NCBI RefSeq assembly: GCF_016767175.1
Contig: NZ_CP068564.1
Coordinates: forward strand, 1,860,001 to 1,924,000
DNA length: 64,000 nt
Origin: Keratinibaculum paraultunense
GTDB taxonomy: Bacteria; Bacillota; Clostridia; Tissierellales; Tepidimicrobiaceae
Direction: 5' to 3'
Positions 6,887 to 28,338 of the stretch are shown here, piece by piece (positions within the stretch are counted from its first letter, which is position 1; each line of letters begins with the position of its first letter). The notes beneath the pieces are model-generated. The model had not been told where the DNA came from and did not search any database. It saw only the letters and a list, made by a program, of their open reading frames with translations. The position numbers were made by a program, and so were the translations under genes.

Positions 6887-8599
6887 TTACTTATTTCTGC
6901 CTTGAATGTAAGCGTATTTAAATTCAATTCCAGAAGCACATAATGGTCTCATTATATTTTTCACATAATCATATTGGAATCTACTAGATTTTCTATATAT
7001 TATTGGAGAAATACATCCATCTTCATATAATAATATTTCTTCTGCACGTTTAAAACATTCCAATCTTTCTTCATCATCTAAGCTTGTCTGAGCTTTTTTA
7101 ATCAATTCATCATATTCCTTGTTAGACCATTGAATGTCTGACATTCCTGAACCTGTTATCCACATATCCATAAATGTCATTGGGTCATCATAATCTCCAT
7201 TCCAACCCATACCAGCTAACTCATAATTTGCACTTTGGACTCTGTCCAAAAATACTGGCCAATCCATATATTCTGCTTCAACATTTATACCTAAAACTGT
7301 CTCATATGCTTGTTGATAATATTCAGCAAATCTTCTACTTTCAGCGTCTGTTCCTGATTGTAACATTGTAACTGTTATTTTACTTGGATCTGGGTCCATT
7401 CCTAACTCTTCTAAACCTTTTATAAGCAGTTCTTTTGGATCTGGATTTTCTTCTTTTAATTTCTTCAATGGTTCATCAACTACATCTCTATAAGTTTTAT
7501 CTCCTACTTTCATAACTGGTGGTATCCAGCCATAAGCAGGTTCTCCTATTCCATAATATAGTACATCTAATAATTCTTCTCTATCTATTGCCAATATAAA
7601 TGCTTTTCTTACATTAGCATTACTAAATAATTTTACATCTTGATTAAAGAATTGATATGCAACAGATGGTTGATATTCACTAACGTATACTAAATCATCT
7701 CTTTGTTTAAATTTTTCAAGCCATTCTGGTTTACTAACTCCACATATATCTATTTGACCATTGGAAAGCATATTATATGCTGTGCTTGGGTCTTCAATAA
7801 CTTTATATGTTATTTTTTCTAATTTAACAGTATCTGCATCCCAATAGTTTTCATTCTTTTCTAAAACTAATTCACTCTTATGAGTCCATTCAGTTAATTT
7901 AAATGGTCCACAGGATATAGTATATTCTGCTTCACTTCCTACCTTATCTCCCCATTGTTCTACAAGATCTTTTCTTTGTGGATACATAGTTTTAAATGCA
8001 AGTAGCTTATCAAAATATGCACAAGGTCCTTCTAATGTAATTTCTAATGTTTTATCATCTATTGCTTTAACTCCTAATTCATCTAAATCTTTTTCTCCAC
8101 TATTACATGCTTCTGCATTCTTTATTGGATATAATAAAAATGCATATACTGAAGCAGTTTCTGGATTAATGGTTCTTTTCATACCATATTCAAAATCATG
8201 AGCTGTAACTGGTTCTCCATCTTCCCATTCATAATCTCTTAAATGGAATGTCCATACTAGCCCATCATCACTTACATCCCAATCTTCAGCACCAGCCGGT
8301 GCTATTACATCTCCTCCATCTTCTCCTACTTCTAACCTTACTAATCCTTCTGTTATTTCATTTAAAATATCTGCTGAATATATATCACTACTCTTAGAAG
8401 GATCTATTGCTTGAGGTTCAGTTATTGTTAATGTTACATATTGTTCATCATCAATATCTTCGTCTGATACATCCTCTCCTGGTCCTTCTTCTACTTTTTC
8501 TTTATCTCCTCCTTTTGCTGGTTCCTCTTTACCACAAGCTACGGTAAATACAGATAATAAAAGTACTAATGCTAACAATAGTGCTAACTTTCTTTTCAT
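6887..8599 (-). CDS. oppA: Oligopeptide-binding lipoprotein OppA, copy 2
   Basis: First gene of the second opp operon, 570 aa, SBP family 5. Lipoprotein signal with lipobox FTVAC (Cys22). It differs from OppA1 and OppA3 mainly in three places: the acidic linker after the signal, residues near 150-160 and 205-215, and most strongly a block near residues 468-490 (AGMGWNGDYDD...ITGSGMSDIQW instead of the ...LTEAQNIPTGW type). Residues that vary while the fold is kept suggest altered peptide selectivity, which is inference. It has its own consensus promoter at 8649-8678. Confidence 0.94.
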   Translation of the reverse strand: MKRKLALLLALVLLLSVFTVACGKEEPAKGGDKEKVEEGPGEDVSDEDIDDEQYVTLTITEPQAIDPSKSSDIYSADILNEITEGLVRLEVGEDGGDVIAPAGAEDWDVSDDGLVWTFHLRDYEWEDGEPVTAHDFEYGMKRTINPETASVYAFLLYPIKNAEACNSGEKDLDELGVKAIDDKTLEITLEGPCAYFDKLLAFKTMYPQRKDLVEQWGDKVGSEAEYTISCGPFKLTEWTHKSELVLEKNENYWDADTVKLEKITYKVIEDPSTAYNMLSNGQIDICGVSKPEWLEKFKQRDDLVYVSEYQPSVAYQFFNQDVKLFSNANVRKAFILAIDREELLDVLYYGIGEPAYGWIPPVMKVGDKTYRDVVDEPLKKLKEENPDPKELLIKGLEELGMDPDPSKITVTMLQSGTDAESRRFAEYYQQAYETVLGINVEAEYMDWPVFLDRVQSANYELAGMGWNGDYDDPMTFMDMWITGSGMSDIQWSNKEYDELIKKAQTSLDDEERLECFKRAEEILLYEDGCISPIIYRKSSRFQYDYVKNIMRPLCASGIEFKYAYIQGRNK

Positions 8600-12808: not shown

Positions 12809-14521
12809 TTACTTATTTCTGCCTTGAATGTAAGCATATTTAAATTCAATTCCAGGTCCATATAATGGTTTTATTATATTTTTCACATAGTCATACTGGA
12901 ATCTACTGGACTTTCTATATAAAATAGGAGAAACTACTGCATCTTCATATAACAATATTTCTTCTGCTTTAGCAATAAGGTCCAATCTTTCTTCATTATC
13001 TAAGCTTGTCTGAGCTTTTCTAATTAATTCATCATATTCCTCGTTAGACCATCCAGTAGGTATGTTTTGAGCTTCTGTTAAGAAATCTGTCATAAATGTC
13101 ATTGGATCATCATAATCTGCTGTAGCACCCATACCTGCCATTTCATAATCATGATTGTAAACTCTATCTAAGAATACTGGCCAATCAACATATTCTGCTT
13201 CAACATTTATGCCTAAAACTTTTTTATATATCTGTTGATAATATTCAACAAATCTTCTGTTTTCGGCATCCGTTCCTCCTTCTAACATTTTTACTGTTAC
13301 TTTGCTTGGATCTGGATCCATTCCTAACTCTTCTAAACCTTTTATAAGCAGTTCTTTTGGATCTAGATTTTCTTCTTTTAATTTCTTTAATGGTTCATCA
13401 ACTATATCTCTATATAACTTGTCTCCTACTTTCATAACTGGTGGTATCCAGCCATAAGCAGGTTCTCCTATTCCATAATATAGTACATCTAATAATTCTT
13501 CTCTATCTAATGCCAATATAAATGCTTTTCTTACATTAGCATTACTAAATAATTTTGTCTTTTGATTAAAAAATTGATATACAATAGATGGTTGAGGTTC
13601 GCTAACGTATACTAAATCATCTCTTTGTTTAAATTTTTCAAGCCATTCTGGCTTACTAACTCCACATATATCTATTTGACCATTGGAAAGCATATTATAT
13701 GCTGTGCTTGGGTCTTCAATAACTTTATATGTTATTTTTTCTAATTTTACATTGTCTGCATCCCAATAGTTTTCGTTCTTTTCTAAAACTAATTCACTCT
13801 TATGAGTCCATTCAGTTAATTTAAATGGTCCACAGGATATAGTATATTCTGCTTCACTTCCTGTTCTATCTCCCCATTGTTCTACAAGATCTTTTCTTTG
13901 AGGATACATAATTCTATGTGAAAGAAGCTTATCAAAATATGCACAAGGTTTTTCTAAAGTAATCTCTAATGTTTTATCATCTAATGCCTTAACTCCTACC
14001 TCATCTAAATCTTTTTCTCCACTATTACATGCTTCTGCATTTTCTATAGGATACAATAAGTATGCAAATACTGCAGCCGTTTCTGGATTAATATTTCTCT
14101 TTATACCATATTCAAAGTCATGGGCTGTAACTGGTTCTCCATCTTCCCATTCATAATCTCTTAAATGGAATGTCCATACTAATCCATCATCACTTACATC
14201 CCAATCTTCAGCACCAGCTGGTACTACTACATCTCCTCCATCTTCCCCTGTTTCCAATCTTGCTAGTCCTTCTGTTATTTCATTTAAAATATCTCCAGAG
14301 TATATATCGTTACTGGTAGAAGGGTCTATAGCTTGAGGCTCAATTATAGTTAATGTTACATATTGTTCATCATCAATATCTTCGTCTGATCCTTCTTTTG
14401 GTTCATCTACTACTTTCCCATCTTCCTTCTTTACATCTGTTGATTCTTCTTTACCACAAGCTACGGTAAATACAGATAGTAAAAGTACTAATGCTAATAA
14501 TAGTGCTAATTTTCTCTTCAT
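12809..14521 (-). CDS. oppA: Oligopeptide-binding lipoprotein OppA, copy 3
   Basis: First gene of the most upstream opp operon, 570 aa, lipobox FTVAC (Cys22), SBP family 5. It shares the STDVKKE linker, the AAVFAYLLYPI segment and the LTEAQNIPTGW segment with OppA1. In the region near residues 395-430 it has its own version (VKMLEGGTDAENRRFVEYYQ) where copies 1 and 2 agree with each other. It is driven by a strong promoter that contains a perfect CcpA operator. Confidence 0.94.
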   Translation of the reverse strand: MKRKLALLLALVLLLSVFTVACGKEESTDVKKEDGKVVDEPKEGSDEDIDDEQYVTLTIIEPQAIDPSTSNDIYSGDILNEITEGLARLETGEDGGDVVVPAGAEDWDVSDDGLVWTFHLRDYEWEDGEPVTAHDFEYGIKRNINPETAAVFAYLLYPIENAEACNSGEKDLDEVGVKALDDKTLEITLEKPCAYFDKLLSHRIMYPQRKDLVEQWGDRTGSEAEYTISCGPFKLTEWTHKSELVLEKNENYWDADNVKLEKITYKVIEDPSTAYNMLSNGQIDICGVSKPEWLEKFKQRDDLVYVSEPQPSIVYQFFNQKTKLFSNANVRKAFILALDREELLDVLYYGIGEPAYGWIPPVMKVGDKLYRDIVDEPLKKLKEENLDPKELLIKGLEELGMDPDPSKVTVKMLEGGTDAENRRFVEYYQQIYKKVLGINVEAEYVDWPVFLDRVYNHDYEMAGMGATADYDDPMTFMTDFLTEAQNIPTGWSNEEYDELIRKAQTSLDNEERLDLIAKAEEILLYEDAVVSPILYRKSSRFQYDYVKNIIKPLYGPGIEFKYAYIQGRNK

Positions 14522-16004: not shown

Positions 16005-17351
16005 TTATTTTCCTATTTGTTCCTCTATGAGTTTAGCTAACCCGTTAGCTATATTTTCTATTTTTTCTTTATCTTTTCCTTCTATCATAATCCTAATTAA
16101 AGGCTCAGTTCCTGAAGGTCTTATAACTACTCTTCCTTCACCTTGAAACATATCCTCTATTTTTTTAATTTCTTCCTTTATGAATTCATCTTCTAAAATA
16201 ATTTCTTTTTTGTCATTATCTACTTTTGCATTTATTAATACTTGAGGGAATTGAGTCATTATATTGTTTAATTGAGACATAGACTTTTTACTTTCTTTCA
16301 TTACTTGAATTAATTGCAATCCAGTCAATAATCCATCTCCTGTAGTATTATAATCTAAAAATATAATATGCCCTGACTGCTCTCCTCCTAAATTATATCC
16401 ATTTGATAGCATCTCTTCTATTACATATCTATCACCAACTGCAGTTTTTACTATATTCATGCCAGCTTCTTTTAAGTATACATCTAATCCCATATTGGTC
16501 ATAACTGTTCCTACTATTGTATTTTTATTAAGTTTATTTCTTTTATATAGATAAGTACCGCATATAGCCAATATATGATCTCCATCTATTATATTCCCTT
16601 TTTCATCTACAGCTATTACTCTATCCCCATCACCATCAAAGGATAATCCAATGTGGGCATCCACTTTTTGTACTAAAGATTGAATCATATCAGGATTTGT
16701 AGAACCACAATTTACATTAATATTTACTCCATTTGGTTCATCATTTATAACTACTATTTCTCCTCCCATCTCTTTCAACAACTGAGGTGCAATTTTGTAC
16801 AAAGCTCCATTACCGCAATCAATAGCTATTTTTATGCCTTTTAAATCTCCATCTACTGTACTTTTTAAATGCTCAATATAATATCTATACCCATCATGTT
16901 TGAATATTATTTTGCCTATATCCCCTTTTATGGGACGTAACGATATATCCTTGTTTTCTAGTATTATACTTTCTATTTCTTCTTCTATTTCATCATTGAG
17001 CTTATATCCTTTTTCATTAAAAAACTTTATTCCATTATATTCCACAGGATTGTGAGAAGCAGATATTACTACTCCTGCTAATCCATCATATTTTCTAGTT
17101 AAATACGCTACGGCTGGTGTGGGAACAATCCCAAGAGAGATTACATCTATACCTATAGAACATATACCAGCTGTTAGAGCTCCTTCTAGCATATCCCCTG
17201 ATTTTCGAGTATCTTTTCCTACTACTATTTGACCTTTTCTACCTTTAGATAATACATAAGCTCCAGCCCTTCCTACTTTAAAAGCTAATTCTGGCGTTAA
17301 ATCCTTATTCGCAATTCCTCTTATTCCATCGGTACCAAATAATTTGCCCAT
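16005..17351 (-). CDS. glmM: Phosphoglucosamine mutase GlmM
   Basis: Converts glucosamine-6-phosphate to glucosamine-1-phosphate for UDP-GlcNAc and peptidoglycan synthesis. 448 aa, full length. The phosphoserine loop ISASHNP places the catalytic serine near residue 99, the metal-binding loop is DGDGDR near residue 240, the sugar-binding loop is GGEQSGH, and the phosphate-binding motif RPSGTEPLIR is near the C-terminus. In other Firmicutes GlmM is known to bind and restrain the c-di-AMP synthase CdaA. Here cdaA-cdaR lie 9 kb away rather than adjacent. Confidence 0.97.
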   Translation of the reverse strand: MGKLFGTDGIRGIANKDLTPELAFKVGRAGAYVLSKGRKGQIVVGKDTRKSGDMLEGALTAGICSIGIDVISLGIVPTPAVAYLTRKYDGLAGVVISASHNPVEYNGIKFFNEKGYKLNDEIEEEIESIILENKDISLRPIKGDIGKIIFKHDGYRYYIEHLKSTVDGDLKGIKIAIDCGNGALYKIAPQLLKEMGGEIVVINDEPNGVNINVNCGSTNPDMIQSLVQKVDAHIGLSFDGDGDRVIAVDEKGNIIDGDHILAICGTYLYKRNKLNKNTIVGTVMTNMGLDVYLKEAGMNIVKTAVGDRYVIEEMLSNGYNLGGEQSGHIIFLDYNTTGDGLLTGLQLIQVMKESKKSMSQLNNIMTQFPQVLINAKVDNDKKEIILEDEFIKEEIKKIEDMFQGEGRVVIRPSGTEPLIRIMIEGKDKEKIENIANGLAKLIEEQIGK

Positions 17352-18880: not shown

Positions 18881-18930
18881 ACATATATAGATGGATAGGT
18901 AAACCGGTTTACCTATCCATCTATATATGT
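18881..18930. repeat. 50-bp perfect palindrome
   Basis: A 25+25 perfect inverted repeat without spacer, centred on AACCGGTT, between the cca start and the 68-aa gene. In RNA it would form a very stable hairpin in both orientations. It lacks a long T-run immediately after the stem on the minus strand, so a terminator role is possible but not clear. A protein-binding site or a small mobile hairpin repeat is an alternative. Confidence 0.8.
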
Positions 18931-19202: not shown

Positions 19203-19270
19203 AAAATTTTAACTCCTCTAAATTATTTAATAGAACTTTGAATATGTTTTTGGTAATTTTAAAAAAAATT

Positions 19271-19296
19271 ATGGGGTTTGTGTACACAAACCCCAT
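19271..19296 (-). terminator. Terminator of the opine-dehydrogenase-like gene
   Basis: A perfect 26-bp palindrome (13+13, ATGGGGTTTGTGT and its complement) followed on the minus strand by AATTTTTTTT, 18 bases after the stop codon. Confidence 0.9.
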
Positions 19297-19314
19297 ATAT
19301 TAACAATTTATGCA

Positions 19315-20430: not shown

Positions 20431-20471
20431 AGTATTACCTCCTTTTCTATATTTTTACTATCTGCTCCATG

Positions 20472-20502
20472 TAAAATAAAAGACTATGGGGGAGCCATAG
20501 TC
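20472..20502 (-). terminator. Riboswitch expression-platform terminator
   Basis: On the minus strand GACTATGG-CTCCC-CCATAGTC is followed by TTTTATTTT. It lies between the c-di-AMP aptamer and the start codon, so it is the element by which ligand binding would stop transcription. Confidence 0.88.
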
Positions 20503-20667
20503 AATAATTCCATAATTCATATATCCCCCTTTCACGCTTACGAGGTTAGCTGACGGGTTCGGGCTAAGGGTTATTGGCCCGTCCATATATGGATTCTTTC
20601 CACATATATGGATTCACCCCTATTGTTGGTTCCCCCGCTTCTTAATATAAATTAAGAATTCAGCGAT
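20503..20667 (-). ncRNA. c-di-AMP riboswitch (ydaO/yuaA type)
   Basis: The minus strand shows the hallmark conserved blocks of the ydaO aptamer in the right order: CGCT at the 5' end (20663-20666), AAGCGGGGGAACCAA, GGGGTGAATCC, a variable stem (about 20581-20612), then GAACCCGTCAGCTAACCTCG and TAAGCGT. A rho-independent terminator follows. The class senses cyclic di-AMP and normally turns genes off when the ligand is high. It controls the opine-dehydrogenase-like gene. Boundaries are approximate because I could not fold it. Confidence 0.93.
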
Positions 20668-20837
20668 ATAAATATTTTATTTTATTTAATAAACTAAAAC
20701 GTTGAAACAAGATTTGATAATTAACAAGATGAACTTTTTTATAAAATATCATGAATTAAGTGACTAAATCAAAGATTAGATTAAATTATACAAATACCTC
20801 TTTATAGAGTATAACATATATTTTTAAAAAAAGCAAT

Positions 20838-20892
20838 GTTTTTTTAAAAAATTATAAAAAAATAACTGGCTTCCAAAAATGGAAACCAGTTT
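20838..20892 (-). terminator. Terminator of the 2-oxoacid oxidoreductase operon
   Basis: An imperfect stem (AACTGG-TTCC with GGAA-CCAGTT, 20865-20892) is followed on the minus strand by TTATTTTTTTATAATTTTTT, right after the gamma-subunit stop codon. The 170 bases between here and the riboswitch (20668-20837) hold no gene. Confidence 0.8.
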
Positions 20893-26309: not shown

Positions 26310-27524
26310 TTACTCTTCCTTTAATGTAATGCTTAGACTTTTTGGTTGTATATTTGCTACAATAAAATCTACTGCATTTTTAACTACAGGTTCAACATAA
26401 TAACTACCTGCTGTAAGATCTTTTAAATCTACCTCTATATCTAAATCTTCTTTGTTTATTGGATTTATTTTAGAACTAGTTCCTTTTATTGTAACTGTAA
26501 AAGGTTGATTTAAATCAGATTCATCTACCTTGAGATTAGACGCTAAATTAACCATATTTATTTCTCCTAGAGTATATCTAAAAACCTTAGTTATACTTTC
26601 TTCAATATTTAATGTCACAGTAATCTGTTGATTTGGATTTACTAAACTTATCTTTTCTGGTAAATCCAATTCTACTACTACATTTTGCTTATTTATTAAA
26701 TCATTTATATTCACTGGTTTGGTTTTTATAGAATTTATCTTTTCTAAATCTTCTTTTTTACCTTTTATATCAATTTCATTTGGCTCTATTTTTATATCTG
26801 TAATTTTATAATCATCTGGTAGCTGCCCTTCTATTTGTAATTCTATAGGTACTTTTTTAATCTTATATACTGGTATAAACACATCTACTAAATTTTGATT
26901 TAGTTCCACACCTCTTACATCATTCCCTTGTTCATCTATGAGCCTTATAGGAACAGTTACATTTATATCTTCCATCTTACTTGTTATATCTACTGTTGCA
27001 ACTACATTCATTACAGAATCAACCCATGATCTGGGTCCTTCTATATACACTGATTGAGGTTTTATAACGGGTTCACCTAATACATAACCTTGTGGAAGTT
27101 CTCCAACAGTTTCTACGTTTACTACCATATCTTTAGTTATAAGTTTTTCAAACTTAAACAATATCTCCTTAGGATAATAATCCACCACTTTTACCTCATC
27201 AGGCACTTCTATATATACAGGAACCTTTACTGCTCCTTCTCCGTATCCACTTAAATCCACTGAAGCTAAAATATCATCTGCTACAATCCGATCTAAATCA
27301 TTTCGCCTACCATAAAGCCTGACAGTAATCTTAGGATCTTTTGGTTCCATTATAACTAATTTTTGCCTTTCCACGCTATCAATATTAGATAAAGTAACTT
27401 CTATATTTCTAATCTCTTTTTCCATAAAAGGGTTTTCTTCACTCATGACATAGCTCCACAATATAATGGCTATTATTAAAGCAAAGATCTTTATAGTTAA
27501 ATCATTTTCCTTTTCTTTGCTCAT
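26310..27524 (-). CDS. cdaR: CdaR (YbbR-domain) regulator of diadenylate cyclase
   Basis: 404 aa. One N-terminal membrane helix (about residues 8-26, TIKIFALIIAIILWSYVMS) anchors an extracytoplasmic chain of YbbR repeats. I see four copies of the pattern, each around a V/I-x-G-x-x-x-x-(V/I/L) core, for example YIEGPRSWVDSVMNVVATVDI and EIDIKGKKEDLEKINSIKTKPV. CdaR is known to modulate CdaA activity. The start overlaps cdaA by 23 bases, so the two are translationally coupled. Confidence 0.93.
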   Translation of the reverse strand: MSKEKENDLTIKIFALIIAIILWSYVMSEENPFMEKEIRNIEVTLSNIDSVERQKLVIMEPKDPKITVRLYGRRNDLDRIVADDILASVDLSGYGEGAVKVPVYIEVPDEVKVVDYYPKEILFKFEKLITKDMVVNVETVGELPQGYVLGEPVIKPQSVYIEGPRSWVDSVMNVVATVDITSKMEDINVTVPIRLIDEQGNDVRGVELNQNLVDVFIPVYKIKKVPIELQIEGQLPDDYKITDIKIEPNEIDIKGKKEDLEKINSIKTKPVNINDLINKQNVVVELDLPEKISLVNPNQQITVTLNIEESITKVFRYTLGEINMVNLASNLKVDESDLNQPFTVTIKGTSSKINPINKEDLDIEVDLKDLTAGSYYVEPVVKNAVDFIVANIQPKSLSITLKEE

Positions 27525-28338
27525 CTTTTCGCCTCCACTTTGTAATAAATGTCTGTTTTGTCTCCTTAGGTTTATACGTATCCATTAGTATTTGTTTTAA
27601 AGTTTTAGCATCTAGATATCTAGCTAAACTGCCATTTTCCGCAATAGATATAGCACCAGTTTCTTCTGATACAACTATAGCTAGTCCATCAGACTTCTCA
27701 GAGATACCCAGTGCTGCCCTATGACGAGTCCCTAAATCTTTACTTAAAGACATATTATCTGTTAAAGGCAAAAAACATCCTGCTGCCTTTATTATATCTT
27801 CTCTTATTATTACAGCTCCATCATGAAGGGGGGTGTTAGGTATGAATATGTTGATTAACAAATCACTGGATACTTTCCCATCTATTATAGTTCCAGTTTC
27901 TATTATTTCATTTAAACCTGTTTTTCTCTCTATAACTATAAGTGCTCCTATTTTTTGTCTAGAAAGTGAAGCCACTGCTTCAACTATTTCATCTACTACT
28001 TGAGATATAGTTTCGTCCTTTATTTCTACAAATGATTTAGTAAAAAACCTACTTCTTCCTAAATACTCTAATGCTCTTCTAAGCTCTGGCTGAAATACTA
28101 TTAATATAGCTAAAGTACCCACTGTTACAATCTGTTTTAATAACCAATTAATAGTATATAATTTTAACCATTCACTAACTTTAGTAAATACAAATAATGC
28201 AAATATTCCTTTAGTAAGCTGCTCTGCTCTAGTTTCTCTAATTAACATAAATAATTTATAAAAAACTAAAGCCACTATTAGTATGTCTATAATATCCTGA
28301 ATTCTTATATTAATAAATATATTTCTTAAAGTCTGCAA
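27502..28338 (-). CDS. cdaA: Diadenylate cyclase CdaA (c-di-AMP synthase)
   Basis: 278 aa. Three N-terminal membrane helices (within residues 10-80) precede the DAC domain, which contains both catalytic signatures, the DGA motif in TPLHDGAVIIRED and the RHR motif in GTRHRAALGISE. Two ATP are condensed to cyclic di-AMP. It heads the cdaA-cdaR operon. In many Firmicutes glmM is the third gene of this operon, but here glmM lies elsewhere (16005-17351). A c-di-AMP riboswitch is also present in this window. Confidence 0.97.
   Translation of the reverse strand: MQTLRNIFINIRIQDIIDILIVALVFYKLFMLIRETRAEQLTKGIFALFVFTKVSEWLKLYTINWLLKQIVTVGTLAILIVFQPELRRALEYLGRSRFFTKSFVEIKDETISQVVDEIVEAVASLSRQKIGALIVIERKTGLNEIIETGTIIDGKVSSDLLINIFIPNTPLHDGAVIIREDIIKAAGCFLPLTDNMSLSKDLGTRHRAALGISEKSDGLAIVVSEETGAISIAENGSLARYLDAKTLKQILMDTYKPKETKQTFITKWRRKDEQRKGK

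Follow-up and report, generated by a model that had tools for sequence, protein, structure and literature searches.

A conserved c-di-AMP riboswitch precedes an opine dehydrogenase gene and may govern an opine-type osmolyte pathway with a B12-mutase-like partner

Why should a riboswitch for c-di-AMP stand ahead of a gene for an opine dehydrogenase? The question is raised by a stretch of 64,000 nucleotides from Keratinibaculum paraultunense (hereafter designated the window), in which an earlier note, made from the letters alone, had placed a c-di-AMP riboswitch with a terminator at 20472–20667 and had proposed that it controls an opine-dehydrogenase-like gene serving osmolyte synthesis. The covariance-model search called for in that note gave a significant match to RF00379 over the full model (positions 1–134; gathering score, 38 bits), and an intrinsic terminator with a T-rich tail lies between the aptamer and the gene (Table 1). 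The leader is thus a genuine c-di-AMP riboswitch and an ordinary member of the known class; the span given in the note covers both switch and terminator, with the aptamer starting 8 nt earlier. A ribosome-binding site is found closely upstream of the start codon (20430) of the gene, designated ODH1. Terminator-like sites flank the unit on both sides, the upstream one closing an operon of 2-oxoacid:ferredoxin oxidoreductase-type genes, so that ODH1 is the sole gene that the switch likely controls, as had been claimed. The genes for the c-di-AMP cyclase, its regulator and GlmM all lie within 10 kb of the riboswitch, again in agreement with the note. The window also contains a perfect 20-bp inverted repeat (18882–18929), downstream of the ODH1 unit toward a nucleotidyltransferase gene, and two near-alike genes for 570-residue OppA-like oligopeptide-binding lipoproteins (6887–8599 and 12809–14521) that flank one opp-type transporter gene set.

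Table 1. Features of the ODH1 locus and of the second riboswitch in the same genome (window positions unless marked as contig positions).
Feature	Position	Strand	Basis
c-di-AMP riboswitch aptamer (ydaO/yuaA, RF00379)	20520–20675	−	cmscan, 98.9 bits, E 3.1e-22
Intrinsic terminator, likely expression platform (GACTATGG-ctccc-CCATAGTC, then TTTTATTTTA)	20482–20502	−	terminator scan
ODH1 ribosome-binding site (AAAGGAGGT)	20437–20445	−	read from sequence
ODH1, CENDH-type opine dehydrogenase, 371 aa	19315–20430	−	PF02317, 158 bits
Terminator-like site 3' of ODH1, ends monocistronic unit	19270–19297	−	terminator scan
Terminator-like site, end of upstream operon	20864–20891	−	terminator scan
cdaR (YbbR), c-di-AMP cyclase regulator	26310–27524	−	PF07949, 120 bits
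cdaA, c-di-AMP cyclase, ligand source	27502–28338	−	PF02457 (DAC), 158 bits, and PF19293 (CdaA_N)
glmM	16005–17351		named from its sequence
Second c-di-AMP riboswitch, leading B12L_2–ODH2–ATP-grasp (unit L036, contig 1414201–1418764)	contig 1418764–1418632		

By analogy with rpfA (PMC10117811) and with KimA and KtrAB (PMC7288161), the leader is most likely an OFF switch: c-di-AMP would stabilise the aptamer, the terminator would halt transcription ahead of ODH1, and ODH1 would be made when c-di-AMP drops. This direction is taken from precedent and not from RNA folding (energy-only, without ligand or pseudoknot), in which the pair probability of the terminator was 0.69 in the free leader and 0.39 with the nested pairs of the aptamer forced; the calculation gave no sign that the aptamer favours the terminator and does not establish the direction.

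The assignment of ODH1 to PF02317 (Octopine_DH; cut-off, 30 bits) was accompanied by N-terminal NAD-binding matches at residues 7–106. Its nearest solved relative is CENDH (1bg6; E 1.2e-84, residues 4–355 aligned), octopine dehydrogenase (3c7a) being a weaker match (E 7.8e-19). H202, R292 and D297, which we take to be active-site residues from knowledge of the family, are invariant in 16 orthologues and occupy the same positions in 1bg6. Judging from these similarities, ODH1 would reductively condense an amino acid with a 2-oxo acid.

The earlier note had suggested a survey of whether such riboswitches precede opine dehydrogenases in other genomes. Across 199 genomes from the order to which the organism of the window belongs, RF00379 gave 97 matches above the cut-off, distributed over 67 genomes, and a profile of ODH1 gave 35 orthologues (631–720 bits), separated by a clean gap from 53 other opine-dehydrogenase matches (161–393 bits); still weaker matches were left out of the count. 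The riboswitch was found 73–257 nt upstream on the same strand in all 35 orthologues and in none of the 53 others (Fisher p ~2e-25, a value that overstates independence because the genomes are related, with several families of the order represented). Moreover, in 33 of the 35 orthologous leaders the aptamer is followed by a terminator whose stem is similar, and the arrangement also occurs elsewhere in the phylum, beyond the order. The regulatory link from the c-di-AMP riboswitch to the opine dehydrogenase gene is therefore nearly certain.

Most ODH1 genes of the order overlap, by 1 or 4 nt, the next gene, which encodes a protein of ~545 residues (hereafter designated B12L). Carriers of the riboswitch–ODH1–B12L unit include [Clostridium] ultunense, Schnuerera, Tissierella, Anaerosalibacter, Tepidanaerobacter, Thermosediminibacter and Thermoanaerobacterium; three genomes (G068, G109 and G089; loci L062, L065 and L069) have ODH1 with no B12L behind it. 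At a relaxed threshold, the N-terminus of B12L matched the B12-binding domain PF02310 in 14 of 14 members, and in its DxHxxG cobalt-binding motif the His and the last Gly are invariant, the Asp being present in B12L_2 and replaced by Cys in most B12L_1. The C-terminal part matched MutE (PF06368) weakly (cut-off, 26.6 bits), the first member scoring 19.9 bits and two other B12L loci 27–31 bits, and the hhalign alignment with a genuine GlmE was colinear over 360 columns (E 2.7e-4) at a probability of only 42%. Among solved structures, the AlphaFold model of B12L (pLDDT 87) was closest to glutamate mutase E (1cb7_B; E 1.2e-15, TMt 0.66), and next came aminomutases and methylmalonyl-CoA mutase; no NCBIfam equivalog names the family. 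Most likely, B12L acts as a mutase that depends on adenosylcobalamin and carries a B12 domain of its own. It may work like glutamate mutase, but we do not count it as a member of that family.

Across the phylum, the B12L profile matched 182 of 398 genomes, many of them in the B12 domain only, with near-full-length B12L in ~80. Of 39 B12L loci sampled, 35 had an opine dehydrogenase gene (ODH) on the same strand no more than 3 kb away and a 36th (L140) had one at a greater distance, and ODH–B12L pairs were also found on contigs binned as Thermoplasmata and Methanofastidiosum. These results give strong support to a linkage of ODH and B12L in one pathway. Further neighbours in the sampled loci were an ATP-grasp ligase (9 loci), an AsnB-like protein (8) and the mutase reactivase GlmL (4), of which one AsnB scored 650 bits (cut-off, 499) and one GlmL 607 bits (cut-off, 475) in the curated models. 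The ATP-grasp ligase and the AsnB-like protein never occurred together in any of the 39 loci, which suggests that they are alternatives for one amide-forming step. Riboswitches were confirmed by cmscan in 10 of the loci (L129, L130, L132, L133 (twice), L140, L148, L153, L154, L165 and L166); one regular-expression match, at L159, was not confirmed and was left out of the count. No riboswitch was detected in about 28 of the 39, so that c-di-AMP does not control the pathway everywhere. At L148 the riboswitch is followed by the ATP-grasp gene, then by ODH and B12L, and at L197 an AsnB-like gene with a c-di-AMP riboswitch of its own is followed by a second riboswitch with ODH1–B12L. A tandem pair of c-di-AMP riboswitches precedes a single ODH1–B12L pair at L133 (7549–7938). 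At L143, L202–L208 and L217, genes for V-type ATPase subunits come after ODH–B12L pairs for which no riboswitch was detected, another possible link to ion homeostasis.

The genome of the window has only two c-di-AMP riboswitches, and both lead genes of the PF02317 opine-dehydrogenase family. The second one leads B12L_2 (629 aa; motif NDPHTEG), ODH2 (427 aa; PF02317, 84 bits) and an ATP-grasp protein (330 aa; PF07478, 109 bits), whose orthologues (~70% identity) lie directly upstream of riboswitch–ODH1–B12L at L179 and L181 (both Anaerosalibacter) and at L182. In another genome (G001), riboswitch–B12L_2–ODH2 occupies the very position where the window has riboswitch–ODH1, after genes for proteins of 358, 248 and 185 aa and before the nucleotidyltransferase and GlmM genes; from this position, the two cassettes look functionally equivalent. 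B12L_1 is missing beside ODH1 in seven genomes of the family, this one included. No remnant of it was found behind ODH1 in the window, and G057 (L040) retains decayed B12L_1 fragments directly after its riboswitch-controlled ODH1 (G057:C1:613122–613375). A third type of B12/MutE-like protein, designated MUT3 (L128:6479–8383), is present in 7 of 7 family genomes without B12L_1 beside ODH1 as against 1 of 9 with B12L_1 (Fisher p 0.0014), and an ODH gene lies directly upstream of a MUT3 relative in G205. It looks as if one mutase has been replaced by another. Since no mutase gene adjoins ODH1 here, the link of ODH1 to B12L_2 or MUT3 in this genome is indirect. In this genus, MUT3 is located near 2-hydroxyacyl-CoA-dehydratase-like and activator-ATPase-like genes.

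According to reviews, c-di-AMP riboswitches control transporters of K+ and of amino acids together with wall enzymes (PMC10117811), and also osmoprotectant synthesis and transport (PMC7288161). The other targets in the order, which we named by eye from their sequences, are mostly betaine-type and amino-acid-type ABC transporters, Trk-type K+ uptake and wall-type (peptidoglycan-binding, wall-hydrolase) genes, with a few signalling genes; the same riboswitch class thus stands over ODH1 and over osmolyte and K+ uptake. The genome of the window (single contig, listed as 100% complete) gave no match to OpuAC or BCCT, the two betaine-uptake families tested. In its family, OpuAC was found in all three g6 genomes without ODH1, whereas a full OpuAC was found in only 4 of the 16 genomes with ODH1 and a fragment in a fifth; a fourth genome without ODH1 (G102, 78% complete) had no OpuAC. 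From this distribution, the opine-type pathway may stand in for betaine uptake. The osmolyte role proposed in the earlier note is supported indirectly by these largely osmotic co-targets, by the lack of OpuAC and BCCT matches and by the amide-forming enzymes clustered with the genes; an amide on the opine would lower its negative charge, fitting a compatible solute.

Collectively, it seems on the whole probable that a c-di-AMP OFF switch governs a pathway of opine dehydrogenase, B12 mutase and amide-forming enzyme that makes an opine-type compatible solute. In the order of steps that we infer, a glutamate-mutase-like B12 mutase (B12L_1 in most relatives, B12L_2 and/or MUT3 here) would act on an amino acid or opine and rearrange it, the reductive joining of an amino acid with a 2-oxo acid would fall to the opine dehydrogenase, and the ATP-grasp ligase, or in other lineages the AsnB-type amidotransferase, would form an amide. 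The product, a compatible solute derived from an opine, would be formed in response to low turgor or low K+ as signalled by c-di-AMP; a product of this kind is likely but unproven. Of the interpretation in the earlier note, the c-di-AMP riboswitch and its control of the opine dehydrogenase gene are well supported. The product is probably not a simple one-step opine, because a wider system is indicated by three elements that the note had missed: the mutase-like partner, the second operon under c-di-AMP, and the amide-forming ligase or amidotransferase.

Other explanations were weighed against the same evidence. Opine formation might serve fermentative redox or amino-acid metabolism as a sink for NADH, with c-di-AMP only coupling it to the metabolic state. 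Animal opine dehydrogenases are such sinks, as in anaerobic invertebrates; the carriers here are mostly anaerobes, and in the family of the window the unit follows the 2-oxoacid:ferredoxin oxidoreductase-type genes. However, the genes upstream are not the same beyond this family, and in the window a terminator separates them from the unit; a redox sink is ill suited to c-di-AMP control and to regulons shared with osmolyte and K+ uptake and needs neither a B12 mutase nor an amide-forming enzyme, which makes this account unlikely. Modification of the cell envelope by the products is quite unlikely: although c-di-AMP riboswitches often control wall genes, those of the wall-hydrolase type are among the other targets in the order, and the ATP-grasp protein resembles D-Ala-D-Ala ligase (its PF07478 match), it scores far under every D-Ala-D-Ala ligase cut-off (136 versus 243 bits at best), AsnB takes its place in many loci, and ODH–B12L pairs stand on contigs that were binned as Thermoplasmata and Methanofastidiosum, archaea that lack murein. 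The low ligase scores and the archaeal-binned contigs also make peptidoglycan synthesis unlikely.

Since opine dehydrogenases are reversible, the pathway could break down or recycle opines instead of making them, and an M20-peptidase-type gene does lie behind ODH1 in two (G109 and G089) or three (with G068) genomes of one genus. Yet no opine uptake system recurs among the neighbours, and the ATP-grasp and AsnB amide-forming enzymes adjoining the pair point to synthesis, so that breakdown appears distinctly improbable. An opine-type metallophore resembling staphylopine is suggested by ODH2 belonging to the same broad superfamily (PF02317), but for neither ODH1 nor ODH2 did the Pfam search report the staphylopine-type dehydrogenase family, the neighbours include no recurrent genes for metallophore export or for a nicotianamine-synthase-like protein, and control is by an osmotic signal; with no matching families or neighbours, this very improbable reading was rejected. 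The chance that the riboswitch stands beside ODH1 by accident, or as a local arrangement devoid of function, is negligible; nothing was found in favour of it, and it was rejected on the contrast of 35/35 with 0/53 over several families of the order and on the recurrence of the arrangement elsewhere in the phylum.

Extending the compatible-solute reading, we put forward tentatively, at slightly less than even likelihood, that c-di-AMP directly controls through its riboswitches an undescribed class of compatible solutes, amidated or ligated opines, whose synthesis involves single-chain B12-dependent mutases of a new family, common in Firmicutes and present also on contigs binned as archaea and Planctomycetes. 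In the open-access papers searched we found no report joining a c-di-AMP riboswitch with an opine, though the primary target survey may carry an earlier mention. Nor did these papers link octopine dehydrogenase to glutamate mutase, or compatible solutes to an opine dehydrogenase; a single paper names both octopine dehydrogenase and a riboswitch, one time each. If the proposal is true, synthesis of an opine-type compound would be added to c-di-AMP control beside the uptake of K+ and known osmolytes, and a role would be found for the widespread B12-mutase-like family and for bacterial CENDH-type opine dehydrogenases. Thermoanaerobacterium saccharolyticum (L199) is a culturable anaerobe with the riboswitch–ODH1–B12L unit, which opens the product to direct search.

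Several known systems resemble parts of this one. ODH1 shares the alignment and the positions of H202, R292 and D297 with CENDH, N-(1-D-carboxylethyl)-L-norvaline dehydrogenase, but sits in a riboswitch-controlled unit with a mutase-like partner. Synthesis of the osmolyte N-acetylglutaminylglutamine amide (NAGGN) likewise uses an asparagine-synthase-like amidotransferase, and the AsnB-like neighbour at L132 scored 295 bits to TIGR03104; this is below the cut-off (570), AsnB being the better match (650 bits; cut-off, 499), and no other NAGGN gene was seen. Glutamate mutase (GlmE/GlmS with GlmL) is approached by B12L in predicted fold, which is closest to GlmE, and in the GlmL-type accessory genes adjoining some loci. 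Unlike glutamate mutase, B12L carries the B12 domain and the barrel on a single chain, B12 domain first, resembles GlmE in sequence only at the limit of detection, and is linked to an opine dehydrogenase. The leader in the window, finally, is of the ydaO/yuaA class in its full-length model match and terminator-type expression platform. The class itself is known; what is new is the target, a conserved opine dehydrogenase with a B12-mutase-like partner, which differs from the targets listed for ydaO/yuaA (PMC10117811, PMC7288161).
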